A stretch of 64,000 nucleotides of DNA. It comes from Pyropia yezoensis (Eukaryota > Rhodophyta > Bangiophyceae > Bangiales > Bangiaceae). The notes below the pieces were generated by a model. It did no database searches and was not told where the DNA came from. It was given only the letters and a program-made list of their open reading frames with translations. Within the stretch, counting starts at the first letter, position 1; every line of letters starts with the position of its first letter. The DNA lies in NCBI GenBank assembly GCA_009829735.1, contig CM020618.1:32340894-32404893 (forward strand). The letters are read 5' to 3'. A program made the position numbers and the translations under genes. This document shows positions 3,074-32,831 of the stretch, piece by piece.

Positions 3074-3150
3074 CTCTCCCACCGGGACTTTCTCAATGCA
3101 TTGAACCCGGGTCTCCCGCGTGACAGGCGGGCATACTTACCACTATACTA
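3074..3150 (-). pseudogene. tRNA-Asp(GUC), 5'-truncated at array 3' end, T-loop insert
   Basis: Read on the minus strand, this covers T8 to G73 of a tRNA-Asp: D-arm, anticodon loop CTGTCAC (anticodon GUC), variable loop, T-stem CCGGG/CCCGG and 3' acceptor strand TGGGAGA. The first seven acceptor bases are missing and replaced by the retrotransposon 3' end (AATTAAAC), so no acceptor stem can form. A 12-nt insert (GCATTGAGAAAG) splits the T-loop after TTCAAT. Removing it leaves the normal loop TTCAATT. The D-loop reads GGTAAGT, as in the other outer copy at 30873-30959 but unlike the inner copies. Confidence 0.85.
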
Positions 3151-3195
3151 GTTTAATTGGCGGTCCGAGGATCAACTCCCCCTGACACCCAATGA

Positions 3196-6100
3196 CTACT
3201 CCCCAATTCTCTCACCCACCCTCACAAAGTGATCACGCGGGCCAAGTGGCCCCCCCACGTCCCCCGCCGGGACCTCCCCCCCAGTCCCAAAGCACCGGCT
3301 GTACCCAAGAGACACAGCGCGGGAGTGGGACCGCCACAAAGCAACAGACACCCGGGTCAGCAGGGTGGACCGCACCCCCGCAAGGGCCGGTCCCCGCATG
3401 GCCCCTCCCAGCCACTTGGCGGTGGCGGGGCCGATGCGCCCAAACGCCTCCCACACCAACGGTGTGAAGGTGTGGGAGGCGGCCGGCCCGGGGAGGGAGG
3501 TGGCATACTTTGCCACCTTGTCCCTCTCCCGCGTCTCGGCCGCAACAGCCCGCAGGGGGCTGGCGGCAGTCGGGGCGGTGGTGCGGGGGCCAAATGGCGC
3601 CGTCACCGACGCGTCCGCCCACACCACCGCCCCCGACGAGGCGTGCGTGGCGCGCAGGTCGGGGCGAAGCGCGCCCCGACCGCGGTCCACCACAGCCTCC
3701 ACCTCCACCCCCCCCCACGAGGGCGTGCGGCGCAGCGCCTCGGCCACCAGGTGCACCAGGTGGTGGTGGAGGCGCGCGTGCCCGGAGGACTGCTCCGGGC
3801 ACGCCGACAGGAAGTGCCGCCCGTCCGCGTCCGCGTCGCGGCCGCAGCGACAGCGGGGCGCCGGCGGTACGGACCGCGGCGGCGCGCCCAGCCACAGCCG
3901 AGCCGCCGCCCGCATGCCGGCGCCGTGCATTGTGGTCCCGGTGGTCCCCAGCGTCGGCAGCGCCGACAGCCAGCGAGCCGCCCCACCCCCCTGGCATGCC
4001 GCCATGCCCGCGCGCCGCCAGAGCGATAGCTCGGCGTAGATGCGCGCGCGGGCGGCGGCATGGGCGGGGCGGGACAAGTCCCGCTGCGCTGCCGGTGCCT
4101 CCCCCCCCAGGAGAGACTGCCACGTGGGTGGCGAGTACAGCGCCGGGCTGTGTGGCCTGTCGGCCGAGGTGCTGTCGGTCGCACCGGCGCTGTACTCGGG
4201 GTAGTGGGGGGGGGGCGGCAGGGGAGGGGCCAGAGGGTCGGCGGCCTCATCGACCGCCGCGTTCGGCCCCCCCCTCGCCAGCGACCACAACAGGCCGCTG
4301 GCAGGGGCCGCGCAGTGCGCCTCGTGGGCCGCCAGCAGGCCCAGGAGGGCCTGCCGGAGAGCGCCGGCAGCAGGCGCGCTGGGGTCGGGGTCGGGGAGCG
4401 GTGGTGGCCGCGCACCCGCCGGCGAGTCACCCGCGGGCCCCCCACCGCCTGCCCCCGTCGGCCCCCCGGCCGCCGGCCCACTCCTGGCCGTCGCAGCAGC
4501 GGCGGCGGGCGGCAGCGGCCCACCGTCGGCCGCAACACGCGGCACCGCCAGGAGGCCGTCCGCCGTGGCGCGCAGCGTGGGGGAGTACGCCGCCCCCGCC
4601 CGCAGCGCGTCCACCCACGACGCCAGCAGGGCGGCGGGCACCACCCGCGTGCGGCTGCCGACGCCCAGACCGCCCATGGCGGGGGGGAGTGCCGCACGCT
4701 CCAGCACCGCCTCACGGGTGGCGGTGCTGTCGCGTGCGTCGCACAGCATCCCCCCCAGGGCAGCCTTGGCGTCGGCGTCGACCGCCGCAGCCAGCCGCGC
4801 GCCGGCCTCCAGCGGGAGGCAGCGCAGCCAGTAGTTGGCGCGCGGCCCCGCGCACAGGCGCAGCAGGAGGAGCTGCGACTGCAGCTCCTCCGCTGGCAGG
4901 GCCGCAATGGCCGCCACCAGGCGGCGCTGGTCGGCCACGAGGCCGTCAACGCCTGCCGACACAAAGGCGGCGCCGCCGAGGGGAACGGAGAACTGCACCA
5001 CCCCCTCGGCGGCCCACTTCCCCCCCCACCCCGGCGGTGCCGCCGCACCAGCCGGCGACCAGCCGGTGCACTTGGCGGGGGCCAGCTCCGCGTCCACGCT
5101 GGCCCCCACCGTGGCCGCGTCAGCCATGACGGCCGCCAGGTCCTCCGGCGTGCCCGCCGCGACCACGTCATCGTGGAAAGCGCGGACGAGCACGCCGGGG
5201 TGGCCGTCCCGCAGACGCCGCAGGACCAGCCACAGGGCGGCCGCGTGCAGCAGCGGGCCGAGCGGGTCGCCCTGCTGCGCGCCCCGCTCGGCCCGCAGCG
5301 CAAAACGGGTGGGCGGTGGTGGGGGGAGCGGTACAGGCAGAGGGGGGGGACCGTCTGCCACCGGGGCCGCACCGTCGCCGCCGTCGCCGTCGCCATTGTC
5401 CCCGCCGTCGCCGCCGCCAGCATCCCCGCCGTTGCCGCCGCCATCGTCGCCGCCGTCGCCGCCGCCATCGTCGCCGCCGTCGTCAGCCCCACCGCTCTCG
5501 CCCGCTCCCTCCGCCGCGGCCGCCCAGCCGTACACCGTCGGCGCCTCCTCCCCCCCATACACCCATTCCAGGTATGGGGCGAGGGGGGGGAGGGCGCGGC
5601 GCAGTACGGCTGCGGCGGCCGCCCGCGACACCAGGTTGAAGGCGTTGCGGTAGTCCAGCTGGACTACCGCATGCTGGGGGTGGTGGGCGAGGTGTGCCTC
5701 CAGCTCGTGCACGAGCCGCTCACACGCGCTCGGCACCCCCACCCCCAGCTGCGCCGGCGCCATCAGCTCTGCCGCGGCCCCGCGCACCGTCGCCGCCAGT
5801 GCCGACGCCGCCAGCTTGCGGAGGGTCTCGGGCATGCCGATGGGCCGAAGCCCGGGCAGCCCGTCCGGTCCGACCCCCCCCGGCTTGGCCAGGAGCAGGA
5901 GGTCCGCGCCAGCGAGGGCGTGCGCCGCCGCGGCGGGCACGCGTGTGACCGCCGCCTCCGACACCAGCAGCTCCAACACCCCCACCAGCGCGTCCTGCCC
6001 CCCCCCCTCCAGCGCCCACAGGTGCTCGACCCGCAGGCCAGACGGGCCCGGCGCTGCGCCCCGGGGGGCTCTGCGGATGGCATCTGTCACCGCCTCCCGC

Positions 6101-7452
6101 GTCACCCCCCGCGGCACCGTGGCGGCGTCGCCAAAATCCGCCGCGTCGGCGAGAAGGTCGCCAAACTCGGCCTCCACCGACGCGGCGGAGGTAGGTGCAG
6201 ACGCGGCGGGAGGGAAGAGGAGGAGCGCCTTCCGCCACACGGCGGCGCTGTGCGGCGCCGGCTCGTCGGCCACCAGGGCTCGGGCGGCGGCACTCAGCCG
6301 GCCGGCCCGCACCAGGCGCAGCGCCCGCCGCTGGGATGGCGCCAGCCCAGTCGCCGCCTGGTCCCCCCCGCGCACCACCCTCCGCCGGCCGTCCAAGCGC
6401 CGCCGCCACGACGGCCGCCACACCCCCGCATTGCGGTCGGCCAGGGCGGTGCTGAACTCGCCGTTCAGCACCGCCTCGGCACGCACGTGGTGGGTGAGCG
6501 GCGGCAGTGGCGCGTCGGGCGCGGTTGCAGGCGCCACAGCAGGGACGTGGAGGAGGAGGGAGGGCAGCAGCAGCAGCCACAGCCAGGCGTGCTGTTGCTC
6601 CGGCTCGCGGCGGACCCAGTCCAGGGCGTCCGCCGCAAGCACCCTCCAGGCGCCCAGCAGTGCCGCCGGCACGTGCGCCACCGTGCGGGCGCCAGACGCC
6701 ACGAGAGGCGACCAATCGGCCGCTGTCGGCGCCGCGCGGCGCAGGAAGTCGGCCCGCGCCGCCACCCAGGCGGGGGGGTCGGCCGCAAACAGCGTGTGCC
6801 CTTCCCCCGCCGCAGCAGCCCCCTGTGCCGCACCTGCGCCGCGCGCGTCCCCCCCGTCCCCAGCTGCGGCAGCAGGCGCCGCTGCAGCCACCACACGGGC
6901 GCGTTGGCGACGGGGGTTGAGGCGGCAGAGAGCCTCATGGGCGGACAGAGAGCTCCGCCCACGAGGCCCCCGCTGCGCGCGGTACGGCCGCCCGCACCAG
7001 CGGCACCCGCCCAGCCCCAGCTCCGTGGCCGTAGCCGCGGGCACCTCGCCGATCACGTGGGCCTGACTGAGATGAGCCAGGCCCGCGCGATCGGCGACGG
7101 CCCCGCGGAGCACCACGCGGCAGCCCACCACCGGGCAGACGCCGGGGGGCACCGTGCCGCCCGCCGCCACCCCCGCTGCCGCCATCGGTGCCCCCGCCGC
7201 CGCTCCCGTCGCCTCCTCCGCCGTGGCCATCGCCGCAGCGCTTGCCGCCGCCGCCTGGGCCGTTGCGGCCTCCGCCGCCAAAGAGCCGCCCAGGGGGCCG
7301 GCGGCCACGGCCACACCAGCGCCCGCCCCCCCCCCCCGCTCGCCGACGTCGCCGCGTCGACCGCCGCCCCCCCCCCTGCCGGGAGCCGGCACGGTGCGTG
7401 ATGGCACCGTGTCGGCACCCGGGCCCCCGCCCGCGCCCAGAGGGTCACTCAT
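3196..7452 (-). CDS. Retrotransposon ORF2: zinc finger - reverse transcriptase - RLE endonuclease (copy 1)
   Basis: 1418 codons from ATG 7452, which overlaps the ORF1 stop by 8 nt (ATGAGTGA). Residues about 105-135 hold a CCHH finger (C-P-V-V-G-C ... H-L-S-Q-A-H). A second Cys/His cluster (C-R-W-C ... H-E-A-L-C) follows. RT motifs: A is Q-L-D-Y-R-N-A-F-N with D600; B is G-A-Q-Q-G-D-P-L-G near 724-735; C is F-H-D-D with D761/D762. A Gly/Asp-rich insert of about 45 residues lies between A and B (near 645-695). Near residue 1200 comes a C-R-C-G ... H-F-L-S-A-C knuckle, followed by the nuclease signature P-D-x14-D (P1264, D1265, D1280) and a downstream Lys-rich region. The catalytic residues are present, so this copy may encode an active enzyme. 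The frame stays open upstream of this ATG only as a shadow of ORF1. Confidence 0.9.
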   Translation of the reverse strand: MSDPLGAGGGPGADTVPSRTVPAPGRGGGGGRRGDVGERGGGAGAGVAVAAGPLGGSLAAEAATAQAAAASAAAMATAEEATGAAAGAPMAAAGVAAGGTVPPGVCPVVGCRVVLRGAVADRAGLAHLSQAHVIGEVPAATATELGLGGCRWCGRPYRAQRGPRGRSSLSAHEALCRLNPRRQRARVVAAAAPAAAAGDGGDARGAGAAQGAAAAGEGHTLFAADPPAWVAARADFLRRAAPTAADWSPLVASGARTVAHVPAALLGAWRVLAADALDWVRREPEQQHAWLWLLLLPSLLLHVPAVAPATAPDAPLPPLTHHVRAEAVLNGEFSTALADRNAGVWRPSWRRRLDGRRRVVRGGDQAATGLAPSQRRALRLVRAGRLSAAARALVADEPAPHSAAVWRKALLLFPPAASAPTSAASVEAEFGDLLADAADFGDAATVPRGVTREAVTDAIRRAPRGAAPGPSGLRVEHLWALEGGGQDALVGVLELLVSEAAVTRVPAAAAHALAGADLLLLAKPGGVGPDGLPGLRPIGMPETLRKLAASALAATVRGAAAELMAPAQLGVGVPSACERLVHELEAHLAHHPQHAVVQLDYRNAFNLVSRAAAAAVLRRALPPLAPYLEWVYGGEEAPTVYGWAAAAEGAGESGGADDGGDDGGGDGGDDGGGNGGDAGGGDGGDNGDGDGGDGAAPVADGPPPLPVPLPPPPPTRFALRAERGAQQGDPLGPLLHAAALWLVLRRLRDGHPGVLVRAFHDDVVAAGTPEDLAAVMADAATVGASVDAELAPAKCTGWSPAGAAAPPGWGGKWAAEGVVQFSVPLGGAAFVSAGVDGLVADQRRLVAAIAALPAEELQSQLLLLRLCAGPRANYWLRCLPLEAGARLAAAVDADAKAALGGMLCDARDSTATREAVLERAALPPAMGGLGVGSRTRVVPAALLASWVDALRAGAAYSPTLRATADGLLAVPRVAADGGPLPPAAAAATARSGPAAGGPTGAGGGGPAGDSPAGARPPPLPDPDPSAPAAGALRQALLGLLAAHEAHCAAPASGLLWSLARGGPNAAVDEAADPLAPPLPPPPHYPEYSAGATDSTSADRPHSPALYSPPTWQSLLGGEAPAAQRDLSRPAHAAARARIYAELSLWRRAGMAACQGGGAARWLSALPTLGTTGTTMHGAGMRAAARLWLGAPPRSVPPAPRCRCGRDADADGRHFLSACPEQSSGHARLHHHLVHLVAEALRRTPSWGGVEVEAVVDRGRGALRPDLRATHASSGAVVWADASVTAPFGPRTTAPTAASPLRAVAAETRERDKVAKYATSLPGPAASHTFTPLVWEAFGRIGPATAKWLGGAMRGPALAGVRSTLLTRVSVALWRSHSRAVSLGYSRCFGTGGEVPAGDVGGPLGPRDHFVRVGERIGE

Positions 7453-10348
7453 TGTGACCCTCGTCGCTGACGCGGGCCGCAGCCCCTGGCCGGTATGGCC
7501 CAGGGGTGGCGGGGAGGGAGGGCGGAAGAATCGCCGTCGTCGCAGCCCGACCCCCCCCCTCTGGCGGGGGGGATGCCGGAGCGGCGTTCTTACGGGCAGC
7601 GAGCTCCACAGCGCTCGCCGCGCGCGTGCGGCGGCACGTCTTGCGAATGGGCGACGCAAGTGCGTCGCCCAATCGCAACACAGCGAGCGCAGGACGCTGT
7701 CGCCGCGCCGGCCCAGGCGCATGGCCTGCAGGGGACCGCCGGCGGTCGGTGGCAGCGCGCCTGCGGGCGGCCACGCCGAGGGGAAGGGCCACAGACGCAG
7801 CAAACGCGGCCGAGCGTGCGGCACCAGGGGGCGGCCTGGTGGGTGGCGGGGGAAGCGGCGGGAGCCCAGCCGCAGCCCTCGGGACGGCGGCACGTTTTGG
7901 CCCACCTCCGAGGTGGAGTCGGGGCCGAGGGGCCGCCGAGGCAGCCACGGATTTTTGGGTCGGCGTGGCCGCAGGCGGGGCGGCGCCGCCCGCCGGCGTG
8001 ACGCCATCCATGCCGTCGCCCAGGTTTGCCGGCACCCCCTTGGCGGGGGGGCCCGGCCCCGGCGCAGGCGGCGAGGGGGGGGGACAGGCCGTCGTGGCGG
8101 CAAGGTCGGGGGCGGGGGTCGCAAGGCCGTCAGCCGAGGCGGCGGGCTCATCCACGATCTCCATGCCCGCCGCCTCGGCGGCACCCCGCAGCCCCAACGA
8201 CGCTGGCCCCGCCACACCCGAGCACGGGGGGGCCTCGGCGGGTGGCCCCCTAGCCGCCACATCGGCCGATCCTGCGGGGGCCACGGCAGGTGGCTCCTTA
8301 GCCGCCGCCCCAGTCTTTGGGGGCCGCCGGCGGTCCCCCTCTCCGCCGATAGACGCGACGGCGTCCGCTCCCCTTTGTGCGTGCGACGAAAGCATGCCCT
8401 CAATGTGGGCATGCAACGCCGCACGCAGGTGGGGGGGCATGGCCACACGGGCGGGGAGCTGGGCCAGCTTGGCCTCGAGGCGGCGGCGACAAAAATCGGC
8501 CGCCGCCTCGGCCGCGGCCGCAGCATCCAGGCCGCGCCGACGCGCGGCACCCAGGAGGGCCGGGGACCACGGGTCGGCGCCGGGCAGGAGGCGCAGCACA
8601 GTGGCCGCACGCCCCTTCCCCACCGCCAGCCGGAACGTGTCCGCCGCTGCAGCCACCACCGTCACGGCGGTGGTGGCGCCGAACCGGTCGACGTCCACAA
8701 AATTGTGGGCGTCGACCCCCGTGACGTCCGCCAGCAACGCGCGCATGCGGTGCTGACGGACGTCACGAGACACCCCCGAGACATACACTGTCTCGAGGGT
8801 GGGGGCGTCGATGGTGCGGCGGCGGACCCGGCACAGCTCCGCCGCGGCTGTGGCGGCGCGGGCGTCGGCGTCGGCGTCGGCAGCAACCCGCCCCCCACCC
8901 TGTCCGGCGCCCGCAGCCCCCCCGCCAGCAGACTGCCCAGCACCCCTCCCAGCAGCTCCACCAGCACGGCCACCAGGAGCGCCACAGTCCCCGCCCGCCG
9001 AGGCGGCACGACCGGCCGCAGCCGCAGGACCCACCCCAGCAGCACCCCCACCACCGCCAGAGGCGCGGGCGTCCCGCCCGCCTGTTCTTGTCAGCCCGCC
9101 TTGGCCGCCCGCGAGGGTGGGTGACATGGACGCGTGGGCGTGGTGGCTCAAACCGCGCTGCACCGCCGCCAACCAGCCGCCCGTTGCCCCCCCGGCGGCG
9201 GCAGCCCCGCCTGCAGGCGGAGCCGCCAGCGAGGGGTCACGCGGGGCGGCAAGAGGGGCGGCAACAGCGCGGCCACCGGCCGCACCTCGCCCACGCGCCC
9301 CCACACCCGCCCCCTCACCCTCGCCACTTTTTCCCCCCCCCCCCCGTGTCCTTGTCCTCGAGGTAGAGCGTGAAGACCTTGAGGAAGTACCGGTAGAACG
9401 GGTAGATCAGGTAGACCTTGACCCGCTCCACCCCGTCCACCTTGCCGACCGCCACCGAGACCCGCTGCCGCCTCCCCCCCAGCCGCCCCACACACAGCAC
9501 AAACACCGGCCGGCGCCGCGCAACCCAGGCCGCTGCCGCACCCACCGCCGAGCGAGGTCCCTCCCCCGCCAGCAGCGCGACCCGCACCGCCACACAGCCC
9601 GGCAGCACCCCGCGCACACGCAGCACCACAAACACCGGCGGCAGCAGCGCCGCGGGCGACACCCACGCGGCCGACCCCGGCCGACGCCGCCGCGCCGCGC
9701 CCAGCCGCCCCAGCCGCCCCGCCACACGCGCCAGCACCGCACACACGACCAGAGGGCACGCCAGCAGGTAGACCGCCCGACGCCGGGGCGCCCGCCGCCC
9801 GGGAAGCCGCACCCACCGCGCCACCACCCGGAAGGGGAGCAGAGGCACCCCCCCCGCCAGCCAAAGCCGCCCCCCCCCCGCCACACGACGCCGCCCGGCC
9901 AGGCCGCGCGGCACACCCCCGCAAAGAGGGAGACAGGGCGGAGCCAGCCCAGCCGCCCCCCGGGGTAGAGCTCCCCGGGGGCGACCCAGGGAAGCCGACA
10001 AAGTCCGCCGCCCCCCCCCCAGGCGGTCCGACCCCGCCGTCACCCCGGGGGAGGCGCAGAAGCCCTGGTTGCCAGTGCGGCTGCCACCGCGATGGGCTCA
10101 TCCCCCATCCCCTCATTGGCCCGTTCGGCCGCCGAAATCGCGCCCTCATTGGCCCGTACGCCCGCCGAAATCGCGCCCTCACTGGCCCGTACGCCCGCCG
10201 CAATCAGGCCCTCATTGGCCCGAATCGCGGCGGCGACAGCTGTAAGCACTCGCAACCGCTCCGCCGTCGTCGTCGCCCCGCCCAACGCGTCGACCACCCC
10301 CACAACCGCCCTCACCAAACACACAAAGCGCGCCCGATCCCCCTCCAT
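7445..10348 (-). pseudogene. Retrotransposon ORF1, frameshifted (copy 1)
   Basis: This corresponds to the 965-967-codon ORF1 of copies 2 and 4 but is broken. One extra C in the run near 10043 ends the N-terminal part after about 102 codons. A second length change lies next to the C13 tract (about 9331-9345). The N-terminus has an 11-residue repeat built on A-N-E-G-x-I-x-A-G. The C-terminal half carries the RRM-like segment starting V-Y-V-S-G-V. Both lesions sit in or near homopolymers, so sequencing error cannot be excluded. The middle part (about 9340-10000) reads with coding-like codons in another frame; see findings. Confidence 0.75.
10110..10222 (-). repeat. 33-bp tandem repeat in ORF1 (copy 1)
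   Basis: Just over three copies of a 33-bp unit encode 11-residue repeats of the form R-A-N-E-G-x-I-A-A-G-V. Equivalent blocks are at about 17462-17572 and 30556-30664. The 11-residue period with Ala/Val/Ile spacing is compatible with a coiled coil. Confidence 0.8.
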
Positions 10349-10428
10349 ACCGCCCTCCCGCGGCCCAGAAAAGCGATGGGGGGGTGACCCGCACCCCCCC
10401 CCACCGTCCTACCGCGAAAAAACGAGCA

Positions 10429-10508
10429 CTCTCCCACCGGGATCGCCAGAGGAACCGATTGAACCCGGGTCTCCCGCGTGACAGGCGGGCATACTGACCA
10501 CTATACTA
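10429..10508 (-). pseudogene. tRNA-Asp fragment at junction of copies 1 and 2
   Basis: T8 to G73 of tRNA-Asp(GUC) with the first seven bases missing, joined to the 3' end of copy 2. The T-loop insert is 15 nt (CGGTTCCTCTGGCGA). The D-loop reads GGTCAGT, differing from both outer copies. A T6 run follows the 3' end on the element side and resembles a Pol III terminator. Confidence 0.85.
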
Positions 10509-10553
10509 GTTTAATTGGCGGTCCAGGGATCAACTCCCCCTGACACCCAATCA

Positions 10554-13500
10554 CTACTCCCCAATTCTCTCACCCACCCTCACAAAGTGATCACGCGGGC
10601 CAAGTGGCCCCCCCACGTCCCCCGCCGGGACCTCCCCCCCAGTCCCAAAGCACCGGCTGTACCCAAGAGACACAGCGCGGGAGTGGGACCGCCACAAAGC
10701 AACAGACACCCGGGTCAGCAGGGTGGACCGCACCCCCGCAAGGGCCGGTCCCCGCATGGCCCCCCGCAGCCACTTGGCGGTGGCGGGGCCGATGCGCCCA
10801 AACGCCTCCCACACCAACGGTGTGAAGGTGTGGGAGGCGGCCGGCCCGGGGAGGGAGGTGGCATACTTTGCCACCTTGTCCCTCTCCCGCGTCTCGGCCG
10901 CAACAGCCCGCAGGGGGCTGGCGGCAGTCGGGGCGGTGGTGCGGGGGCCAAATGGCGCCGTCACCGACGCGTCCGCCCACACCACCGCCCCCGACGAGGC
11001 GTGCGTGGCGCGCAGGTCGGGGCGAAGCGCGCCCCGACCGCGGTCCACCACAGCCTCCACCTCCACCCCCCCCCACGAGGGCGTGCGGCGCAGCGCCTCG
11101 GCCACCAGGTGCACCAGGTGGTGGTGGAGGCGCGCGTGCCCGGAGGACTGCTCCGGGCACGCCGACAGGAAGTGCCGCCCGTCCGCGTCCGCGTCGCGGC
11201 CGCAGCGACAGCGGGGCGCCGGCGGTACGGACCGCGGCGGCGCGCCCAGCCACAGCCGAGCCGCCGCCCGCATGCCGACGCCGTGCATTGTGGTCCCGGT
11301 GGTCCCCAGCGTCGGCAGCGCCGACAGCCAGCGAGCCGCCCCACCCCCCTGGCATGCCGCCATGCCCGCGCGCCGCCAGAGCGATAGCTCGGCGTAGATG
11401 CGCGCGCGGGCGGCGGCATGGGCGGGGCGGGACAAGTCCCGCTGCGCTGCCGGTGCCTCCCCCCCCAGGAGAGACTGCCACGTGGGTGGCGAGTACAGCG
11501 CCGGGCTGTGTGGCCTGTCGGCCGAGGTGCTGTCGGTCGCACCGGCGCTGTACTCGGGGTAGTGGGGGGGGGGCGGCAGGGGAGGGGCCAGAGGGTCGGC
11601 GGCCTCATCGGCCGCCGCGTTCGGCCCCCCCCTCGCCAGCGACCACAACAGGCCGCTGGCAGGGGCCATACAGTGCGCCTCGTGGGCCGCCAGCAGGCCC
11701 AGGAGGGCCTGCCGGAGAGTGCCGGCAGCAGGCGCGCTGGGGTCGGGGTCGGGGAGCGGTGGTGGCCGCGCACCCGCCGGCGAGTCACCCGCGGGCCCCC
11801 CACCGCCTGCCCCCGTCGGCCCCCCGGCCGCCGGCCCACTCCTGGCCGTCGCAGCAGCGACGGCGGGCGGCAGCGGCCCACCGTCGGCCGCAACACGCGG
11901 AACCGCCAGGAGGCCGTCCGCCGTGGCGCGCAGCGTGGGGGAGTACGCCGCCCCCGCCCGCAGCGCGTCCACCCACGACGCCAGCAGGGCGGCGGGTACT
12001 ACACGCGTGCGGCCGCCGACGCCCAGACCGCCCATGGCGGGGGGGAGTGCCGCACGCTCCAGCACCGCCTCACGGGTGGCGGTGCTGTCGCGTGCGTCGC
12101 ACAGCATCCCCCCCAGGGCGGTCTTGGCGTCGGCGTCGACCGCCGCAGCCAGCCGCGCGCCGGCCTCCAGCGGGAGGCAGCGCAGCCAGTAGTTGGCGCG
12201 CGGCCCCGCGCACAGGCGCAGCAGGAGGAGCTGCGACTGCAGCTCCTCCGCTGGCAGGGCCGCGATGGCCGCCACCAGGCGGCGCTGGTCGGCCACGAGG
12301 CCGTCAACCCCTGCCGACACAAAGGCGGCGCCGCCGAGGGGAACGGAGAACTGCACCACCCCCTCGGCGGCCCACTTCCCCCCCCACCCCGGCGGTGCCG
12401 CCGCACCAGCCGGCGACCAGCCGGTGCACTTGGCGGGGGCCAGCTCCGCGTCCACGCTGGCCCCCACCGTGGCCGCGTCAGCCATGACAGCCGCCAGGTC
12501 CTCCGGCGTGCCCGCCGCGACCACGTCATCGTGGAAAGCGCGGACGAGCACGCCGGGGTGGCCGTCCCGCAGACGCCGCAGGACCAGCCACAGGGCGGCC
12601 GCGTGCAGCAGCGGGCCGAGCGGGTCGCCCTGCTGCGCGCCCCGCTCGGCCCGCAGCGCCAAACGGGTGGGCGGTGGTGGGGGGAGCGGTACAGGCAGAG
12701 GGGGGGGACCGTCCGCCACCGGGGCCGCACCGTCGCCGCCGTCGCCGTCGCCATTGTCCCCGCCGTCGCCGCCGCCAGCATCCCCGCCGTTGCCGCCGCC
12801 ATCGTCGCCGCCGTCGCCGCCGCCATCGTCGCCGCCGTCGTCAGCCCCACCGCTCTCGCCCGCCCCCTCCGCCGGGGCCGCCCAGCCGTACACCGTCGGC
12901 GCCTCCTCCCCCCCATACACCCATTCCAGGTATGGGGCGAGGGGGGGGAGGGCGCGGCGCAGTACGGCTGCGGCGGCCGCCCGCGACACCAGGTTGAAGG
13001 CGTTGCGGTAGTCCAGCTGGACTACCGCATGCTGGGGGTGGTGGGCGAGGTGTGCCTCCAGCTCGTGCACGAGCCGCTCACACGCGCTCGGCACCCCCAC
13101 CCCCAGCTGCGCCGGCGCCAGCAGCTCTGCCGCGGCCCCGCGCACCGTCGCCGCCAGTGCCGACGCCGCCAGCTTGCGGAGGGTCTCGGGCATGCCGATG
13201 GGCCGAAGCCCGGGCAGCCCGTCCGGTCCGACCCCCCCCGGCTTGGCCAGGAGCAGGAGGTCCGCGCCAGCGAGGGCGTGCGCCGCCGCGGCGGGCACGC
13301 GTGTGACCGCCGCCTCCGACACCAGCAGCTCCAACACCCCCACCAGCGCGTCCTGCCCCCCCCCCTCCAGCGCCCACAGGTGCTCGACCCGCAGGCCAGA
13401 CGGGCCCGGCGCCGCGCCCCGGGGGGCTCGGCGGATGGCATCCGTCATCGCCTCCCGCGTCACCCCCCGCGGCACCGTGGCGGCGTCGCCAAAATCCGCC

Positions 13501-17700: not shown

Positions 17701-17780
17701 ACCGCCCTCCCGCGGCCCAGAAAAGCGATGGGGGGGTGACCCGCACCCCCCCCCACCGTCCTACCGCGAAAAAACGAGCA

Positions 17781-17860
17781 CTCTCCCACCGGGAACGACA
17801 GAGGAACCAATTGAACCCGGGTCTCCCGCGTGACAGGCGGGCATACTGACCACTATACTA
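17781..17860 (-). pseudogene. tRNA-Asp fragment at junction of copies 2 and 3
   Basis: Same structure as 10429-10508: T8 to G73, first seven bases replaced by the 3' end of copy 3. The 15-nt T-loop insert is TGGTTCCTCTGTCGT and the D-loop is GGTCAGT. Removing the insert restores a normal seven-base T-loop. Confidence 0.85.
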
Positions 17861-17905
17861 GTTTAATTGGCGGTCCAGGGATCAACTCCCCCTGACACCC
17901 AATCA

Positions 17906-22162: not shown

Positions 22163-23452
22163 TGTGACCCTCGTCGCTGACGCGGGCCGCAGCCCCTGGC
22201 CGGTATGGCCCAGGGGTGGCGGGGAGGGAGGGCGGAAGAATCGCCGTCGTCGCAGCCCGACCCCCCCCCTCTGGCGGGGGGGATGCCGGAGCGACCTTCT
22301 TACGGGCGGCGAGCTCCACAGCGCTCGCCGCGCGCGTGCGGCGGCACGTCTTGCGAATGGGCGACGCAAGTGCGTCGCCCAATCGCAGCACAGCGAGCGC
22401 AGGACGCTGTCGCCGCGCCGGCCCAGGCGCATGGCCTGCAGGGGACCGCCGGCGGTCGGTGGCAGCGCGCCTGCGGGCGGCCACGCCGAGGGGAAGGGCC
22501 ACAGACGCAGCAAACGCGGCCGAGCGTGCGGCGCCAGGGAGCGGCCTGGTGGGTGGCGGGGGAAGCGGCGGGAGCCCAGCCGCAGCCCTCGGGACGGCGG
22601 CACGTTTTGGCCCACCTCCGAGGTGGAGTCGGGGCCGAGGGGCCGCCGAGGCAGCCACAGATTTTTGGGTCGGCGTGGCCGCAGGCGGGGCGGCGCCGCC
22701 CGCCGGCGTGACGCCATCCATGCCGTCGCCCAGGTCTGCCGGCACCCCCTTGGCGGGGGGGCCCGGCCCCGGCGCAGGCGGCGAGGGGGGGGGACAGGCC
22801 GTCGTGGCGGCAAGGTCGGGGGCGGGGGTCGCAAGGCCGTCAGCCGAGGCGGCGGGCTCATCCACGATCTCCATGCCCGCCGCCTCGGCGGCACCCCGCA
22901 GCCCCAACGACGCTGGCCCCGCCACACCCGAGCACGGCGGGGGCCTCGGCAGGTGGCCCCCTAGCCGCCACATCGGCCGATCCTGCGGGAGCCACGGCAG
23001 GTGGCTCCTTAGCCGCCGCCCCAGTCTTTGGGGGCCGCCGGCGGTCCCCCTCTCCGCCGATAGACGCGACGGCGTCAGCTCCCCTTTCTGCGTGCGACGA
23101 AAGCATGCCCTCAATGGGCATGCAACGCCGCACGCAGGTGGGGGGCATGGCCACACGGGCGGGGAGCTGGGCCAGCTTGGCCTCGAGGCGGCGGCGACAA
23201 AAATCGGCCGCCGCCTCGGCCGCGGCCGCAGCACCCAGGCCGCGCCGACGCGCGGCACCCAGGAGGGCCGGGGACCACGGGTCGGCGCCGGGCAGGAGGC
23301 GCAGAACAGTGGCCGCACGCCCCTTCCCCACCGCCAGCCGAAATGCGTCCGCCGCCGCAGCCACGACCGTCACGGCGGTGGTGGTGCCGAACCGGTCGAC
23401 GTCCACAAAATTGTGGGCGTCAACCCCCGTGACGTCCGCCAGCAACGCGCGC
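22155..23452 (-). pseudogene. Retrotransposon ORF1, C-terminal part only (copy 3)
   Basis: This covers the C-terminal end of ORF1 and part of the RRM-like segment, truncated by the gap at 23453. Three small indels (near 22938, 23117 and 23143) interrupt the frame relative to copies 2 and 4. I treat it as partial, with doubtful bases, rather than as a proven pseudogene. Confidence 0.6.
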
Positions 23453-23952
23453 NNNNNNNNNNNNNNNNNNNNNNNNNNNNNNNNNNNNNNNNNNNNNNNN
23501 NNNNNNNNNNNNNNNNNNNNNNNNNNNNNNNNNNNNNNNNNNNNNNNNNNNNNNNNNNNNNNNNNNNNNNNNNNNNNNNNNNNNNNNNNNNNNNNNNNNN
23601 NNNNNNNNNNNNNNNNNNNNNNNNNNNNNNNNNNNNNNNNNNNNNNNNNNNNNNNNNNNNNNNNNNNNNNNNNNNNNNNNNNNNNNNNNNNNNNNNNNNN
23701 NNNNNNNNNNNNNNNNNNNNNNNNNNNNNNNNNNNNNNNNNNNNNNNNNNNNNNNNNNNNNNNNNNNNNNNNNNNNNNNNNNNNNNNNNNNNNNNNNNNN
23801 NNNNNNNNNNNNNNNNNNNNNNNNNNNNNNNNNNNNNNNNNNNNNNNNNNNNNNNNNNNNNNNNNNNNNNNNNNNNNNNNNNNNNNNNNNNNNNNNNNNN
23901 NNNNNNNNNNNNNNNNNNNNNNNNNNNNNNNNNNNNNNNNNNNNNNNNNNNN
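23453..23952. other. Assembly gap (500 N)
   Basis: Exactly 500 N. By alignment with copies 1 and 2, the missing DNA should hold the rest of copy 3, a tRNA-Asp fragment and the first ~355 bp of copy 4, at least ~2.1 kb. It could hide further whole copies. The round number indicates an arbitrary gap size. Confidence 0.95.
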
Positions 23953-26900
23953 ACTTTGCCACCTTGTCCCTCTCCCGCGTCTCGGCCGCAACAGCCCGCA
24001 GGGGGCTGGCGGCAGTCGGGGCGGTGGTGCGGGGGCCAAATGGCGCCGTCACCGACGCGTCCGCCCACACCACCGCCCCCGACGAGGCGTGCGTGGCGCG
24101 CAGGTCGGGGCGAAGCGCGCCCCGACCGCGGTCCACCACAGCCTCCACCTCCACCCCCCCCACGAGGGCGTGCGGCGCAGCGCCTCGGCCACCAGGTGCA
24201 CCAGGTGGTGGTGGAGGCGCGCGTGCCCGGAGGACTGCTCCGGGCACGCCGACAGGAAGTGCCGCCCGTCCGCGTCCGCGTCGCGGCCGCAGCGACAGCG
24301 GGGCGCCGGCGGTACGGACCGCGGCGGCGCGCCCAGCCACAGCCGAGCCGCCGCCCGCATGCCGGCGCCGTGCATTGTGGTCCCGGTGGTCCCCAGCGTC
24401 GGCAGCGCCGACAGCCAGCGAGCCGCCCCACCCCCCTGGCATGCCGCCATGCCCGCGCGCCGCCAGAGCGATAGCTCGGCGTAGATGCGCGCGCGGGCGG
24501 CGGCATGGGCGGGGCGGGACAAGTCCCGCTGCGCTGCCGGTGCCTCCCCCCCCAGGAGAGACTGCCACGTGGGTGGCGAGTACAGCGCCGGGCTGTGTGG
24601 CCTGTCGGCCGAGGTGCTGTCGGTCGCACCGGCGCTGTACTCGGGGTAGTGGGGGGGGGGCGGCAGGGGAGGGGCCAGAGGGTCGGCGGCCTCATCGACC
24701 GCCGCGTTCGGCCCCCCCTCGCCAGCGACCACAACAGGCCGCTGGCAGGGGCCGCGCAGTGCGCCTCGTGGGCCGCCAGCAGGCCCAGGAGGGCCTGCCG
24801 GAGAGCGCCGGCAGCAGGCGCGCTGGGGTCGGGGTCGGGGAGCGGTGGTGGCCGCGCACCCGCCGGCGAGTCACCCGCGGGCCCCCCACCGCCTGCCCCC
24901 GTCGGCCCCCCGGCCGCCGGCCCACTCCTGGCCGTCGCAGCAGCGGCGGCGGGCGGCAGCGGCCCACCGTCGGCCGCAACACGCGGCACCGCCAGGAGGC
25001 CGTCCGCCGTGGCGCGCAGCGTGGGGGAGTACGCCGCCCCCGCCCGCAGCGCGTCCACCCACGACGCCAGCAGGGCGGCGGGCACCACCCGCGTGCGGCT
25101 GCCGACGCCCAGACCGCCCATGGCGGGGGGGAGTGCCGCACGCTCCAGCACCGCCTCACGGGTGGCGGTGCTGTCGCGTGCGTCGCACAGCATCCCCCCC
25201 AGGGCAGCCTTGGCGTCGGCGTCGACCGCCGCAGCCAGCCGCGCGCCGGCCTCCAGCGGGAGGCAGCGCAGCCAGTAGTTGGCGCGCGGCCCCGCGCACA
25301 GGCGCAGCAGGAGGAGCTGCGACTGCAGCTCCTCCGCTGGCAGGGCCGCAATGGCCGCCACCAGGCGGCGCTGGTCGGCCACGAGGCCGTCAACGCCTGC
25401 CGACACAAAGGCGGCGCCGCCGAGGGGAACGGAGAACTGCACCACCCCCTCGGCGGCCCACTTCCCCCCCCACCCCGGCGGTGCCGCCGCACCAGCCGGC
25501 GACCAGCCGGTGCACTTGGCGGGGGCCAGCTCCGCGTCCACGCTGGCCCCCACCGTGGCCGCGTCAGCCATGACGGCCGCCAGGTCCTCCGGCGTGCCCG
25601 CCGCGACCACGTCATCGTGGAAAGCGCGGACGAGCACGCCGGGGTGGCCGTCCCGCAGACGCCGCAGGACCAGCCACAGGGCGGCCGCGTGCAGCAGCGG
25701 GCCGAGCGGGTCGCCCTGCTGCGCGCCCCGCTCGGCCCGCAGCGCAAAACGGGTGGGCGGTGGTGGGGGGAGCGGTACAGGCAGAGGGGGGGGACCGTCT
25801 GCCACCGGGGCCGCACCGTCGCCGCCGTCGCCGTCGCCATTGTCCCCGCCGTCGCCGCCGCCAGCATCCCCGCCGTTGCCGCCGCCATCGTCGCCGCCGT
25901 CGCCGCCGCCATCGTCGCCGCCGTCGTCAGCCCCACCGCTCTCGCCCGCTCCCTCCGCCGCGGCCGCCCAGCCGTACACCGTCGGCGCCTCCTCCCCCCC
26001 ATACACCCATTCCAGGTATGGGGCGAGGGGGGGGAGGGCGCGGCGCAGTACGGCTGCGGCGGCCGCCCGCGACACCAGGTTGAAGGCGTTGCGGTAGTCC
26101 AGCTGGACTACCGCATGCTGGGGGTGGTGGGCGAGGTGTGCCTCCAGCTCGTGCACGAGCCGCTCACACGCGCTCGGCACCCCCACCCCCAGCTGCGCCG
26201 GCGCCATCAGCTCTGCCGCGGCCCCGCGCACCGTCGCCGCCAGTGCCGACGCCGCCAGCTTGCGGAGGGTCTCGGGCATGCCGATGGGCCGAAGCCCGGG
26301 CAGCCCGTCCGGTCCGACCCCCCCCGGCTTGGCCAGGAGCAGGAGGTCCGCGCCAGCGAGGGCGTGCGCCGCCGCGGCGGGCACGCGTGTGACCGCCGCC
26401 TCCGACACCAGCAGCTCCAACACCCCCACCAGCGCGTCCTGCCCCCCCCCCTCCAGCGCCCACAGGTGCTCGACCCGCAGGCCAGACGGGCCCGGCGCTG
26501 CGCCCCGGGGGGCTCTGCGGATGGCATCTGTCACCGCCTCCCGCGTCACCCCCCGCGGCACCGTGGCGGCGTCGCCAAAATCCGCCGCGTCGGCGAGAAG
26601 GTCGCCAAACTCGGCCTCCACCGACGCGGCGGAGGTAGGTGCAGACGCGGCGGGAGGGAAGAGGAGGAGCGCCTTCCGCCACACGGCGGCGCTGTGCGGC
26701 GCCGGCTCGTCGGCCACCAGGGCTCGGGCGGCGGCACTCAGCCGGCCGGCCCGCACCAGGCGCAGCGCCCGCCGCTGGGATGGCGCCAGCCCAGTCGCCG
26801 CCTGGTCCCCCCCGCGCACCACCCTCCGCCGGCCGTCCAAGCGCCGCCGCCACGACGGCCGCCACACCCCCGCATTGCGGTCGGCCAGGGCGGTGCTGAA

Positions 26901-27896
26901 CTCGCCGTTCAGCACCGCCTCGGCACGCACGTGGTGGGTGAGCGGCGGCAGTGGCGCGTCGGGCGCGGTTGCAGGCGCCACAGCAGGGACGTGGAGGAGG
27001 AGGGAGGGCAGCAGCAGCAGCCACAGCCAGGCGTGCTGTTGCTCCGGCTCGCGGCGGACCCAGTCCAGGGCGTCCGCCGCAAGCACCCTCCAGGCGCCCA
27101 GCAGTGCCGCCGGCACGTGCGCCACCGTGCGGGCGCCAGACGCCACGAGAGGCGACCAATCGGCCGCTGTCGGCGCCGCGCGGCGCAGGAAGTCGGCCCG
27201 CGCCGCCACCCAGGCGGGGGGGTCGGCCGCAAACAGCGTGTGCCCTTCCCCCGCCGCAGCAGCCCCCTGTGCCGCACCTGCGCCGCGCGCGTCCCCCCCG
27301 TCCCCAGCTGCGGCAGCAGGCGCCGCTGCAGCCACCACACGGGCGCGTTGGCGACGGGGGTTGAGGCGGCAGAGAGCCTCATGGGCGGACAGAGAGCTCC
27401 GCCCACGAGGCCCCCGCTGCGCGCGGTACGGCCGCCCGCACCAGCGGCACCCGCCCAGCCCCAGCTCCGTGGCCGTAGCCGCGGGCACCTCGCCGATCAC
27501 GTGGGCCTGACTGAGATGAGCCAGGCCCGCGCGATCGGCGACGGCCCCGCGGAGCACCACGCGGCAGCCCACCACCGGGCAGACGCCGGGGGGCACCGTG
27601 CCGCCCGCCGCCACCCCCGCTGCCGCCATCGGTGCCCCCGCCGCCGCTCCCGTCGCCTCCTCCGCCGTGGCCATCGCCGCAGCGCTTGCCGCCGCCGCCT
27701 GGGCCGTTGCGGCCTCCGCCGCCAAAGAGCCGCCCAGGGGGCCGGCGGCCACGGCCACACCAGCGCCCGCCCCCCCCCCCCGCTCGCCGACGTCGCCGCG
27801 TCGACCGCCGCCCCCCCCCCTGCCGGGAGCCGGCACGGTGCGTGATGGCACCGTGTCGGCACCCGGGCCCCCGCCCGCGCCCAGAGGGTCACTCAT
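23953..27896 (-). pseudogene. Retrotransposon ORF2 (copy 4), 3'-incomplete, two frameshifts near gap
   Basis: ORF2 reads normally from ATG 27896 through the zinc fingers and RT. Two losses of single C residues in poly-C runs (near 24718 and 24162) then shift the frame ahead of and inside the endonuclease. Both lie within 800 bp of the contig end, so consensus error in homopolymers is likely. The stop codon falls in the gap. Catalytic RT residues match copy 1. Confidence 0.7.
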
Positions 27897-30792
27897 TGTG
27901 ACCCTCGTCGCTGACGCGGGCCGCAGCCCCTGGCCGGTATGGCCCAGGGGTGGCGGGGAGGGAGGGCGGAAGAATCGCCGTCGTCGCAGCCCGACCCCCC
28001 CCCTCTGGCGGGGGGGATGCCGGAGCGGCGTTCTTACGGGCAGCGAGCTCCACAGCGCTCGCCGCGCGCGTGCGGCGGCACGTCTTGCGAATGGGCGACG
28101 CAAGTGCGTCGCCCAATCGCAACACAGCGAGCGCAGGACGCTGTCGCCGCGCCGGCCCAGGCGCATGGCCTGCAGGGGACCGCCGGCGGTCGGTGGCAGC
28201 GCGCCTGCGGGCGGCCACGCCGAGGGGAAGGGCCACAGACGCAGCAAACGCGGCCGAGCGTGCGGCACCAGGGGGCGGCCTGGTGGGTGGCGGGGGAAGC
28301 GGCGGGAGCCCAGCCGCAGCCCTCGGGACGGCGGCACGTTTTGGCCCACCTCCGAGGTGGAGTCGGGGCCGAGGGGCCGCCGAGGCAGCCACGGATTTTT
28401 GGGTCGGCGTGGCCGCAGGCGGGGCGGCGCCGCCCGCCGGCGTGACGCCATCCATGCCGTCGCCCAGGTTTGCCGGCACCCCCTTGGCGGGGGGGCCCGG
28501 CCCCGGCGCAGGCGGCGAGGGGGGGGGACAGGCCGTCGTGGCGGCAAGGTCGGGGGCGGGGGTCGCAAGGCCGTCAGCCGAGGCGGCGGGCTCATCCACG
28601 ATCTCCATGCCCGCCGCCTCGGCGGCACCCCGCAGCCCCAACGACGCTGGCCCCGCCACACCCGAGCACGGGGGGGCCTCGGCGGGTGGCCCCCTAGCCG
28701 CCACATCGGCCGATCCTGCGGGGGCCACGGCAGGTGGCTCCTTAGCCGCCGCCCCAGTCTTTGGGGGCCGCCGGCGGTCCCCCTCTCCGCCGATAGACGC
28801 GACGGCGTCCGCTCCCCTTTGTGCGTGCGACGAAAGCATGCCCTCAATGTGGGCATGCAACGCCGCACGCAGGTGGGGGGGCATGGCCACACGGGCGGGG
28901 AGCTGGGCCAGCTTGGCCTCGAGGCGGCGGCGACAAAAATCGGCCGCCGCCTCGGCCGCGGCCGCAGCATCCAGGCCGCGCCGACGCGCGGCACCCAGGA
29001 GGGCCGGGGACCACGGGTCGGCGCCGGGCAGGAGGCGCAGCACAGTGGCCGCACGCCCCTTCCCCACCGCCAGCCGGAACGTGTCCGCCGCTGCAGCCAC
29101 CACCGTCACGGCGGTGGTGGCGCCGAACCGGTCGACGTCCACAAAATTGTGGGCGTCGACCCCCGTGACGTCCGCCAGCAACGCGCGCATGCGGTGCTGA
29201 CGGACGTCACGAGACACCCCCGAGACATACACTGTCTCGAGGGTGGGGGCGTCGATGGTGCGGCGGCGGACCCGGCACAGCTCCGCCGCGGCTGTGGCGG
29301 CGCGGGCGTCGGCGTCGGCGTCGGCAGCAACCCGCCCCCCACCCTGTCCGGCGCCCGCAGCCCCCCCGCCAGCAGACTGCCCAGCACCCCTCCCAGCAGC
29401 TCCACCAGCACGGCCACCAGGAGCGCCACAGTCCCCGCCCGCCGAGGCGGCACGACCAGCCGCAGCCGCAGGACCCACCCCAGCAGCACCCCCACCACCG
29501 CCAGAGGCGCGGGCGTCCCGCCCGCCTGTTCTTGTCAGCCCGCCTTGGCCGCCCGCGAGGGTGGGTGACATGGACGCGTGGGCGTGGTGGCTCAAACCGC
29601 GCTGCACCGCCGCCAACCAGCCGCCCGTTGCCCCCCCGGCGGCGGCAGCCCCGCCTGCAGGCGGAGCCGCCAGCGAGGGGTCACGCGGGGCGGCAAGAGG
29701 GGCGGCAACAGCGCGGCCACCGGCCGCACCTCGCCCACGCGCCCCCACACCCGCCCCCTCACCCTCGCCCACTTGTTCCCCCCCCCCCCCGTGTCCTTGT
29801 CCTCGAGGTAGAGCGTGAAGACCTTGAGGAAGTACCGGTAGAACGGGTAGATCAGGTAGACCTTGACCCGCTCCACCCCGTCCACCTTGCCGACCGCCAC
29901 CGAGACCCGCTGCCGCCTCCCCCCCAGCCGCCCCACACACAGCACAAACACCGGCCGGCGCCGCGCAACCCAGGCCGCTGCCGCACCCACCGCCGAGCGA
30001 GGTCCCTCCCCCGCCAGCAGCGCGGCCCGCACCGCCACACAGCCCGGCAGCACCCCGCGCACACGCAGCACCACAAACACCGGCGGCAGCAGCGCCGCGG
30101 GCGACACCCACGCGGCCGACCCCGGCCGACGCCGCCGCGCCGCGCCCAGCCGCCCCAGCCGCCCCGCCACACGCGCCAGCACCGCACACACGACCAGAGG
30201 GCACGCCAGCAGGTAGACCGCCCGACGCCGGGGCGCCCGCCGCCCGGGAAGCCGCACCCACCGCGCCACCACCCGGAAGGGGAGCAGAGGCACCCCCCCC
30301 GCCAGCCAAAGCCGCCCCCCCCCCGCCACACGACGCCGCCCGGCCAGGCCGCGCGGCACACCCCCGCAAAGAGGGAGACAGGGCGGAGCCAGCCCAGCCG
30401 CCCCCCGGGGTAGAGCTCCCCGGGGGCGACCCAGGGAAGCCGACAAAGTCCGCCGCCCCCCCCCCAGGCGGAGCGATCCCGCTGTCACACGGGGGAGGCG
30501 CAGAAGCCCTGGTTGCCAGTGCGGCTGACACCGCGATGGGCTCATCCCCCATCCCCTCATTGGCCCGTTCGGCCGCCGTAATCGCGCCCTCATTGGCCCG
30601 TACGCCCGCCGAAATCGCGTCCTCACTGGCCCGTACGCCCGCCGCAATCGGGCCCTCATTGGCCCGAATCGCGGCGGCGACAGCTGTAAGCACTCGCAAC
30701 CGCTCCGCCGTCGTCGTCGCCCCGCCCAACGCGTCGACCACCCCCACAACCGCCCTCACCAAACACACAAAGCGCGCCCGATCCCCCTCCAT
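27889..30792 (-). CDS. Retrotransposon ORF1 with RRM-like domain (copy 4), intact
   Basis: 967 codons from ATG 30792, stop overlapping ORF2 by 8 nt. Layout as in copy 2: N-terminal 11-residue repeats, Gly/Ala/Cys-rich middle, RRM-like V-Y-V-S-G-V segment, basic C-terminus. In this copy the alternative +1 frame of the middle part is open for 385 codons (29592-30749). It includes a stretch rich in Tyr, Phe, Leu and Lys with almost only G/C-ending codons (about 29815-29900). Confidence 0.75.
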   Translation of the reverse strand: MEGDRARFVCLVRAVVGVVDALGGATTTAERLRVLTAVAAAIRANEGPIAAGVRASEDAISAGVRANEGAITAAERANEGMGDEPIAVSAALATRASAPPPCDSGIAPPGGGAADFVGFPGSPPGSSTPGGGWAGSALSPSLRGCAARPGRAASCGGGGAALAGGGGASAPLPGGGAVGAASRAAGAPASGGLPAGVPSGRVCGAGACGGAAGAAGRGAAASAGVGRVGVARGAAAAGVCGAACARGAAGLCGGAGRAAGGGGTSLGGGCGSGLGCAAPAGVCAVCGAAGGEAAAGLGGGRQGGRGGAGQGLPDLPVLPVLPQGLHALPRGQGHGGGGEQVGEGEGAGVGARGRGAAGGRAVAAPLAAPRDPSLAAPPAGGAAAAGGATGGWLAAVQRGLSHHAHASMSPTLAGGQGGLTRTGGRDARASGGGGGAAGVGPAAAAGRAASAGGDCGAPGGRAGGAAGRGAGQSAGGGAAGAGQGGGRVAADADADARAATAAAELCRVRRRTIDAPTLETVYVSGVSRDVRQHRMRALLADVTGVDAHNFVDVDRFGATTAVTVVAAAADTFRLAVGKGRAATVLRLLPGADPWSPALLGAARRRGLDAAAAAEAAADFCRRRLEAKLAQLPARVAMPPHLRAALHAHIEGMLSSHAQRGADAVASIGGEGDRRRPPKTGAAAKEPPAVAPAGSADVAARGPPAEAPPCSGVAGPASLGLRGAAEAAGMEIVDEPAASADGLATPAPDLAATTACPPPSPPAPGPGPPAKGVPANLGDGMDGVTPAGGAAPPAATPTQKSVAASAAPRPRLHLGGGPKRAAVPRAAAGLPPLPPPPTRPPPGAARSAAFAASVALPLGVAARRRAATDRRRSPAGHAPGPARRQRPALAVLRLGDALASPIRKTCRRTRAASAVELAARKNAAPASPPPEGGGRAATTAILPPSLPATPGPYRPGAAARVSDEGHNE

Positions 30793-30860
30793 ACCGCCCT
30801 CCCGCGGCCCAGAAAAGCGATGGGGGGGTGACCCGCACCCCCCCCCACCGTCCTACCGCG

Positions 30861-30866
30861 AAAAAA
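30861..30866 (-). terminator. T6 run after tRNA-Asp, candidate Pol III terminator
   Basis: Six T residues in the tRNA sense lie seven bases after G73. The same run follows the tRNA pieces in front of copies 1 and 2. It would end a Pol III transcript of the tRNA before the retrotransposon leader. Confidence 0.5.
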
Positions 30867-30872
30867 CGAGCA

Positions 30873-30959
30873 CTCTCCCACCGGGAACGTCAGAGGAACC
30901 AATTGAACCCGGGTCTCCCGCGTGACAGGCGGGCATACTTACCACTATACTATGGAAGA
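30873..30959 (-). tRNA. tRNA-Asp(GUC), complete, 15-nt T-loop insert
   Basis: All elements of a 72-nt tRNA-Asp are present once a 15-nt insert is set aside. The acceptor strand TCTTCCA pairs with TGGGAGA with one G-T wobble. T8-A9, D-arm, anticodon stem and loop with GTC, T-stem CCGGG/CCCGG and discriminator G73 are all there. The insert (TGGTTCCTCTGACGT) lies in the T-loop after TTCAAT, and its removal gives TTCAATT. Ectopic tRNA introns at such positions are known from red algae. I could not confirm a bulge-helix-bulge splice motif by eye. The 5' part is host DNA, while the 3' part with the insert matches the element-borne type, so insertion appears to have rebuilt a whole tRNA gene at the upstream edge of the array. 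Confidence 0.8.
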
Positions 30960-32765: not shown

Positions 32766-32831
32766 TCATGGACCAATACGATACGCGTTCCCAAATGTGC
32801 TACGCTTGACAGCTCCTGAGGATAGCGACTG

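Follow-up and report, generated by a model that had tools for sequence, protein, structure and literature searches.

The window, as we call the whole 64,000-nucleotide stretch of Pyropia yezoensis DNA that was analysed (C1:32340894-32404893, C1 being contig CM020618.1), carries between positions 3151 and 30952 an array of retroelement units of about 7.35 kb, two of them complete and two partial, with one gap of N (Table 1). Genome-wide searches covered the 107.48-Mb assembly, which has three large contigs of 43.6, 34.3 and 29.4 Mb. An initial annotation had described at least four such units in one orientation; the array and its direction stand, since all units lie on the - strand, and the completeness is amended to two full and two partial units.

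Table 1. Features of the array, in positions of the window.
Feature	Position	Strand	Remarks
Native tRNA-Asp nt 8-73, 3' edge of array	3075..3150	-	own 12-nt T-loop insert at 3088-3099 (GCATTGAGAAAG), own trailer
Unit A, 3'-most, complete, 7358 bp	3151..10508	-	3' terminus at 3151; 5' terminus is the carried T8 at 10508
ORF2 of unit A, 1418 aa	3196..7452	-	zinc-finger pattern, PF00078, CCHC, PD-x14-D
Carried tRNA-Asp nt 8-73 of unit A, with a 15-nt insert	10430..10508	-	TTTTTT follows at 10417-10422
Unit B, complete, 7352 bp	10509..17860	-	ORF2 at 10554-14810, open
tRNA-Asp nt 8-73 carried by unit B	17782..17860	-	
Unit C, partial, 5' part in gap	17861..23452	-	ORF2 at 17906-22162, open
Assembly gap, 500 N, inside array	23453..23952	.	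hides 5' end of C and 3' end of D
Unit D, partial, 3' end in gap	23953..30952	-	5' end with carried tRNA part
tRNA-Asp nt 1-73, 5' edge of array	30874..30959	-	nt 1-7 from host flank; element-type downstream part, insert TGGTTCCTCTGACGT and T6 run

All three visible 3' ends of the units read ...CCAATTAAAC and abut T8 of tRNA-Asp, as had been claimed. The three visible 5' ends begin at the same T8 and continue through nt 8-73 of the tRNA, with a 15-nt insert in the T-loop, into a run of six T; the tRNA piece first noted ahead of each 5' end is confirmed, although it is not a 3' half but nt 8-73. At the outer 5' edge, nt 1-7 of the tRNA (TCTTCCA, 30953-30959) are host flank, and a reading of this edge as a tRNA fragment at 30952 was rejected, as nt 1-73 are all there. 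Junctions A/B and B/C are free of gaps, and the units differ pairwise by 0.3-2.6%, so they are not one collapsed sequence. ORF2 is open in three of the four units (A, B and C); ORF1 ends after 102 codons in unit A and, in the stretch examined of unit B, is open for at least 473 codons from an ATG near 17700. The copies of tRNA-Asp also differ in one D-loop base, which is A in the 5'-edge copy and in the native 3' copy and C in both internal copies. Because this A is common to both edges, part of the window's rebuilt tRNA-Asp may be target sequence. Unit A is identical over 1500 nt (100.0%) to a copy 5.2 Mb away on C1 and 98.9% identical to its neighbour B, and unit B matches a copy on C2 at 99.7% identity, a pattern that fits separate, serial insertions and to which gene conversion or assembly smoothing could contribute.

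A Pfam search of ORF2 returned RVT_1 alone, with no transposase or integrase. This reverse transcriptase (PF00078, E 3.3e-7) was found in all three family members tested, with a best E of 2.1e-10. The protein further contains a C2H2 zinc-finger pattern near its N-terminus (aa 106-132, window 7057-7137; motif only), a CCHC motif at aa 1201-1218 (window 3799-3852) and a PD-x14-D motif at aa 1264-1280 (window 3613-3663), the latter two being invariant across the four families aligned (4/4). We take a C-terminal CCHC with PD-x12-14-D to be the endonuclease motifs of RLE-type non-LTR retrotransposons, and the elements are assigned by these motifs to that type; at the motif level, the original assignment on the basis of RT and P-D-x14-D holds. 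No PDB profile matched the endonuclease region, for which a single-sequence AlphaFold model reached a pLDDT of 40. R2 proteins match the RT profile weakly and collinearly (9nl3, E=0.048; 9dou, E=0.075), and PDB matches to Gly-rich stretches were set aside as low complexity. Crude-count dN/dS values are 0.29 for B vs C, 0.46 for A vs B and 0.82 for A vs C (just 9 changes); pairs with unit D, whose frame is not clean where the gap interrupts it, were dropped. The start of ORF1 is homologous among families and lies 81-126 nt past the carried gene part. When the terminal 75 nt of 11 rows were folded, several of the rows, though not all, showed a hairpin close to the 3' end. For an HDV-like ribozyme at the 5' end, Rfam matched neither the Asp window copy (E up to 1) nor the 5' regions tried in other families.

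Across the genome, a 100-nt query from the 3' end found 14 copies at loci on three chromosomes. All 14 end at T8 of tRNA-Asp and none elsewhere, the outcome expected by the initial annotation, and chance is excluded because every 3' end found abuts the same nucleotide on three chromosomes. With a query from the 5' end, 16 places matched: 15 lie after a tRNA-Asp body, and the 16th, a weaker match, belongs to a U6 family; both counts are lower bounds. In tRNA-Asp genes of the array type, the T-loop contains an insert of 12-15 nt. Both insert and trailer vary from locus to locus at the 3' edges of arrays (window, GCATTGAGAAAG; C1:37.57 Mb, TCCCAATGAATG; C2:23.17 Mb, CTCAGAACGACCA), whereas the 5' edges and array interiors of unlinked loci share one element type, TGGTTCCTCTGACGT or close variants, followed by GTGCTCG and a T run. 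As they are common between loci, unlike the native 3' edges, all or most of tRNA-Asp nt 8-73 belongs to the element, together with the insert and the T run. The 5' edges of different loci are homologous from exactly tRNA nt 1 inward, with no homology upstream, and at the upstream edge the carried Asp piece completes, judging from its sequence, the host's nt 1-7.

All four class-A tRNA-Asp 5' ends found in the assembly (L002, L007, L008, L012) are array edges. Four class-B tRNA-Asp genes are empty, namely L017, L018, L020 and L054, the last of which has a D-loop insert as well; the class-B gene L019 is filled, while in its near-copy L018 (99.8% identical over 1551 bp) the site is empty and the gene uncut. 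A copy at C2:23.17-23.18 Mb is either truncated or interrupted: about 0.9 kb of its 5' end is missing, other repeat DNA stands there and there is no rebuilt gene. The copy at C3:19118, which aligned at about 52% as it matches the Asp family in just its 3'-most part, was not used.

Relatives that are 52-59% identical over the RLE region sit in tRNA-Gly(CCC), tRNA-Ile(AAU) and U6 snRNA genes. Used as a query, the protein region of the RLE returned 70 rows, of which 51 fall below 60% identity, and 36 3' flanks were fetched (20 + 16). These comprise 4 tRNA-Gly(CCC), 13 tRNA-Ile and 3 U6 flanks, 1 diverged U6-like stretch, 3 tRNA-Gly(GCC) in antisense, 1 Asp-family fragment, 1 unclassified flank, 9 of a further family (8 of those alike) and 1 U6-family end outside U6 (L075, which, like L067, L110, L109 and L016, was classed by eye, L016 having a mismatch and an element 3' end upstream). 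The genes are split at 7|8 in tRNA-Asp, at about 43|44 in tRNA-Gly(CCC) (CATGCGA|TGGACC), at about 47|48 in tRNA-Ile(AAU) and at CGCGC|AGAGATGAC in U6 snRNA, and in all four families a run of 4-8 T stands just past the carried gene part.

In the Gly family, ARAGORN called tRNA-Gly at all five 5' edges found, and at three 3' edges the trailer is a different, native one; five of the six whole tRNA-Gly(CCC) genes found are element 5' edges, two of these five sharing a flank. The part carried by the Ile family was found in 13 copies, 12 internal and one at a 5' edge, where both ARAGORN and Rfam (60.8 bits) recognise tRNA-Ile(AAU). A native Ile end, L110, lies 235 kb downstream of this edge on the same strand, and the two are taken as the edges of one array. 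Just the trailer differs in this pair, for both the carried Ile part and L110 are free of the T-loop insert that is present in all three native tRNA-Ile genes fetched and in the displaced end L067. Because the last 8 nt of the element equal the host's 8 nt ahead of the split, the Ile split can be placed only to within 8 nt. Of the two U6 5' edges, L094 is a U6 gene (RF00026, 60.4 bits), and L096, with about 21 nt of U6 ahead of the split and 25 bits, below threshold, speaks against restoration there. Empty sites exist for tRNA-Gly (L106) and for U6 (L097, L098).

Taken over the four families, 12 5' edges outside arrays were found (Asp 4, Gly 5, Ile 1, U6 2), a count that leaves out the C2 copy without a 5' end. 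A whole gene stands at 11 of them, or at 9 of 10 when only distinct flanks are counted (L012 repeats the flank of L008, and L099 that of L101). Both outer edges could be paired, by strand and proximity and with the DNA between them read in the window alone, at six loci: Asp at C1:32.34 and C1:37.55 Mb, Gly at C1:12.93, C3:1.59 and C1:38.72 Mb, and Ile at C1:7.56-7.79 Mb. At each of the six, a whole gene whose end or trailer is of the element type stands at the 5' edge, and the displaced native end, with a different trailer, lies at the 3' edge.

As tRNA calls, the rebuilt genes behave differently between families. ARAGORN calls all six Gly and Ile 5' edges outside arrays and none of the four rebuilt Asp genes (L002, L007, L008, L012), and it called no tRNA in the window. 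The window copy ending at 30959 scores 23.9 bits with Rfam, below the 29-bit cut-off, its T-loop being interrupted by the insert, and Rfam found nothing at E up to 0.1 in the rebuilt Asp genes of L007 and L008. Native class-B tRNA-Asp genes reach up to 29.7 bits, and ARAGORN calls two of three (L017 and L018, not L020). The reading of the Asp edge as a whole gene is based on its sequence and on the presumed removal of the T-loop insert.

We consider it probable that these RLE elements insert at one point of a Pol III gene while carrying the downstream part of that gene and a T run, with which they would restore it. The anatomy of the arrays, their junctions, the recurrence over four targets and the whole genes at the 5' edges are direct observations. 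The proposed route follows from the junctions and from what is established for RLE elements. The endonuclease would cut the bottom strand where the gene is split, and this nick would prime reverse transcription from the 3' end of the RNA (target-primed reverse transcription). The element RNA would start inside the carried gene part or upstream of it, so that the cDNA would end in sequence matching the target, and its joining would fuse the upstream gene part of the host to the downstream part of the element. The upstream edge would then be a complete gene, and the displaced native end would stay downstream as a fragment. Since gene plus element would still be a valid target, later insertions would stack head to tail. 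We infer the order of these events, the start of the RNA and the function of the rebuilt genes; the long RNA that bears the ORFs would moreover have to be squared with Pol III termination at the T run that the element carries.

The carried tRNA or U6 piece might instead be a promoter or RNA-processing module, comparable to the head of a SINE, with gene completion as a side effect. The carried Asp part does span the A-box and B-box regions, and the tRNA scores of the rebuilt Asp genes are poor. The Gly and Ile families, however, carry the part after nt ~44-48 only and the U6 family the 3' end of U6 only, without an A box, and what all four families have in common is the 3' part of a gene with a T run; we regard the module reading as unlikely.

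Another possibility is an ordinary site-specific RLE element with a long target-site duplication of about 80 bp, the 5' tRNA being the duplicated target. A whole upstream gene with a downstream fragment would also be expected from a staggered cut past the end of the gene, duplications of 20 bp are given for Utopia in reptiles in the available text of PMC4640811, and the D-loop A at both window edges is compatible with a duplication of ~13 nt or more. Yet the two window edges differ beyond the gene, with TGGTTCCTCTGACGT/GTGCTCG at one and GCATTGAGAAAG/GTTTACG at the other; intron and trailer differ at both Asp loci, and the trailer at three Gly loci and one Ile locus, while the 5' edges of different loci are alike. 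Because the trailer, and for Asp also the intron, differs between the edges at six loci, a long target-site duplication is rejected as quite improbable. It is very improbable that ectopic recombination, gene conversion or scaffolding errors produced the arrays and the whole 5'-edge genes, for although there are N gaps in arrays, L012 adjoins a gap and shares its flank with L008, the Gly flanks L099 and L101 are the same in inverted orientation and copies at distant loci are 100% identical, the same split-point boundary recurs in four target genes at loci with unrelated flanks and both edges are present at six loci. A permuted or trans-split tRNA, the former of which occurs in red algae according to the part of PMC3978253 available, was also rejected, as the order is not permuted and whole genes stand at the 5' edges.

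Beyond insertion with gene restoration at single loci, we lean towards a broader proposal, namely that a clade living inside essential Pol III genes carries the replacement downstream part in its RNA, rebuilds the gene with each insertion, changes targets by capturing new 3' parts and so overwrites the gene ends of its host. If true, part of the alga's tRNA supply (class-A Asp and tRNA-Gly(CCC)) is now encoded by element DNA. Loss of the tRNA-Ile intron could follow, because the carried Ile part is without the T-loop intron of the natives. At the sole rebuilt Ile locus, the displaced end is without the intron too. Target switching should be traceable, because a piece of the target is present in every full-length copy. 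Site-specific LINEs are thought to survive through target genes of many copies, where loss is cheap; in the alga, the genes hit are apparently low-copy tRNA and U6 genes, and the cost of the damage is seemingly borne by the element. A possible use would be harmless targeted insertion by target-primed reverse transcription.

The initial annotation had also noted the targeting of the tRNA-Asp interior by such an element in an apparent red alga as not known to be described. The targeting and the red algal host are confirmed; such targeting is not new, since RLE insertion into tRNA interiors is already published, the available text of PMC4640811 placing NeSL-1_TV in tRNA-Pro, LIN15_SM in tRNA-Arg and LIN25_SM in tRNA-Glu. 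A literature search, which took in few subscription journals and did not extend to Repbase, returned no non-LTR element recognised as carrying the downstream part of its target for rebuilding. A restoring variant of RLE retrotransposons did not appear in the literature searched, and it is the carried gene part that seems new, insertion into tRNA interiors being known.

Among known systems, Utopia (in U2 snRNA genes) and NeSL-type elements resemble the algal ones in combining RT with RLE, in their precise 3' boundary within a small RNA gene and in occasional tandems; they differ in targets and host, and the available text on them describes no carried downstream gene part. Intact U2 genes upstream of Utopia in Phytophthora, for which deletion or recombination was considered in the same portion of PMC4640811, would have a testable explanation in gene restoration. 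Dada elements share insertion inside tRNA and U6 genes, with U1 as a further target (available text of PMC8869645 and PMC3706591) and duplications of 6-7 bp (PMC8869645, same text); unlike the algal element, which has an RT, they are DNA transposons. Dictyostelium TRE and yeast Ty elements also use Pol III sites, but beside the gene, according to the accessible part of PMC5911963, whereas the algal elements lie within it. SINEs and other tRNA-headed elements differ in that the Gly, Ile and U6 families have the 3' part of the gene only, without a Pol III head of A and B boxes. R2, which inserts into 28S rRNA genes, shares the weak collinear match to the RT profile and the CCHC/PD..D order; R2 inactivates the 28S gene that it enters, whereas in the alga a whole gene stands upstream of the element. 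A parallel in working lies with prokaryotic integrative elements, in which the 3' end of a tRNA forms part of the attachment site and the gene is rebuilt after insertion. Those use an integrase and a DNA intermediate as against the algal RT, and the algal elements are not members of that group; they would be the retrotransposon counterpart of the rebuilding of tRNA genes by bacterial integrative elements.

The tRNA-Asp part carried by one copy inside an array (L055) has an altered anticodon loop, CCCTC instead of CTGTC; CTGTC is retained in all four tRNA-Asp copies at array edges. Judged from its sequence, the altered loop of the internal copy looks as if it were free of constraint.

Two Gly-family 5' edges (L099 and L101) have one 5' flank in common, in inverted orientation, and two Asp-family 5' edges (L008 and L012) have another in common, adjoining an N gap. 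These repeated flanks are either segmental copies or scaffolding errors. At an Ile-family 3' junction (L067), an Rfam LSU rRNA match of 130 bits spans the entire 701-bp stretch that includes the junction.

Beyond these families, the RLE elements at L111, L112, L113, L116, L117, L118, L121, L123 and L124 are 40-48% identical to the Asp family and constitute an older family, with the same downstream sequence, GAACGGCCGACAATTACCC..., at 8/9 of their 3' ends. Another related RLE family has its 3' end point at nt ~27/28 of tRNA-Gly(GCC), in antisense; one flank is common to L114 and L115.

Positions of the loci and motifs (C1-C3, large contigs)
Feature	Locus	Position
Internal carried tRNA-Asp	L055	C3:19.118 Mb
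Gly-family 5' edge	L099	C3:21.67 Mb
Gly-family 5' edge	L101	C3:21.64 Mb
Asp-family 5' edge	L008	
Asp-family 5' edge	L012	
Ile-family 3' junction	L067	C3:10525450-10526150
Antisense tRNA-Gly(GCC) family	L114	C1:42.21 Mb
Antisense tRNA-Gly(GCC) family	L115	C1:42.16 Mb
Antisense tRNA-Gly(GCC) family	L120	C2:22.94 Mb
Several GGGCGTG/CACGCCC motifs, close to lower-GC stretches		window 32300-34560

Short inserts away from the anticodon were also observed in tRNA genes (L017, L018, L020, L054, L138-L140, L052, L053 and L125), in the T-loop (12-15 nt; tRNA-Asp and tRNA-Ile genes) and in the D-loop (~15-35 nt; tRNA-Asp and a tRNA with anticodon CTT). tRNA introns of such kind are on record in C. merolae (PMC3978253).
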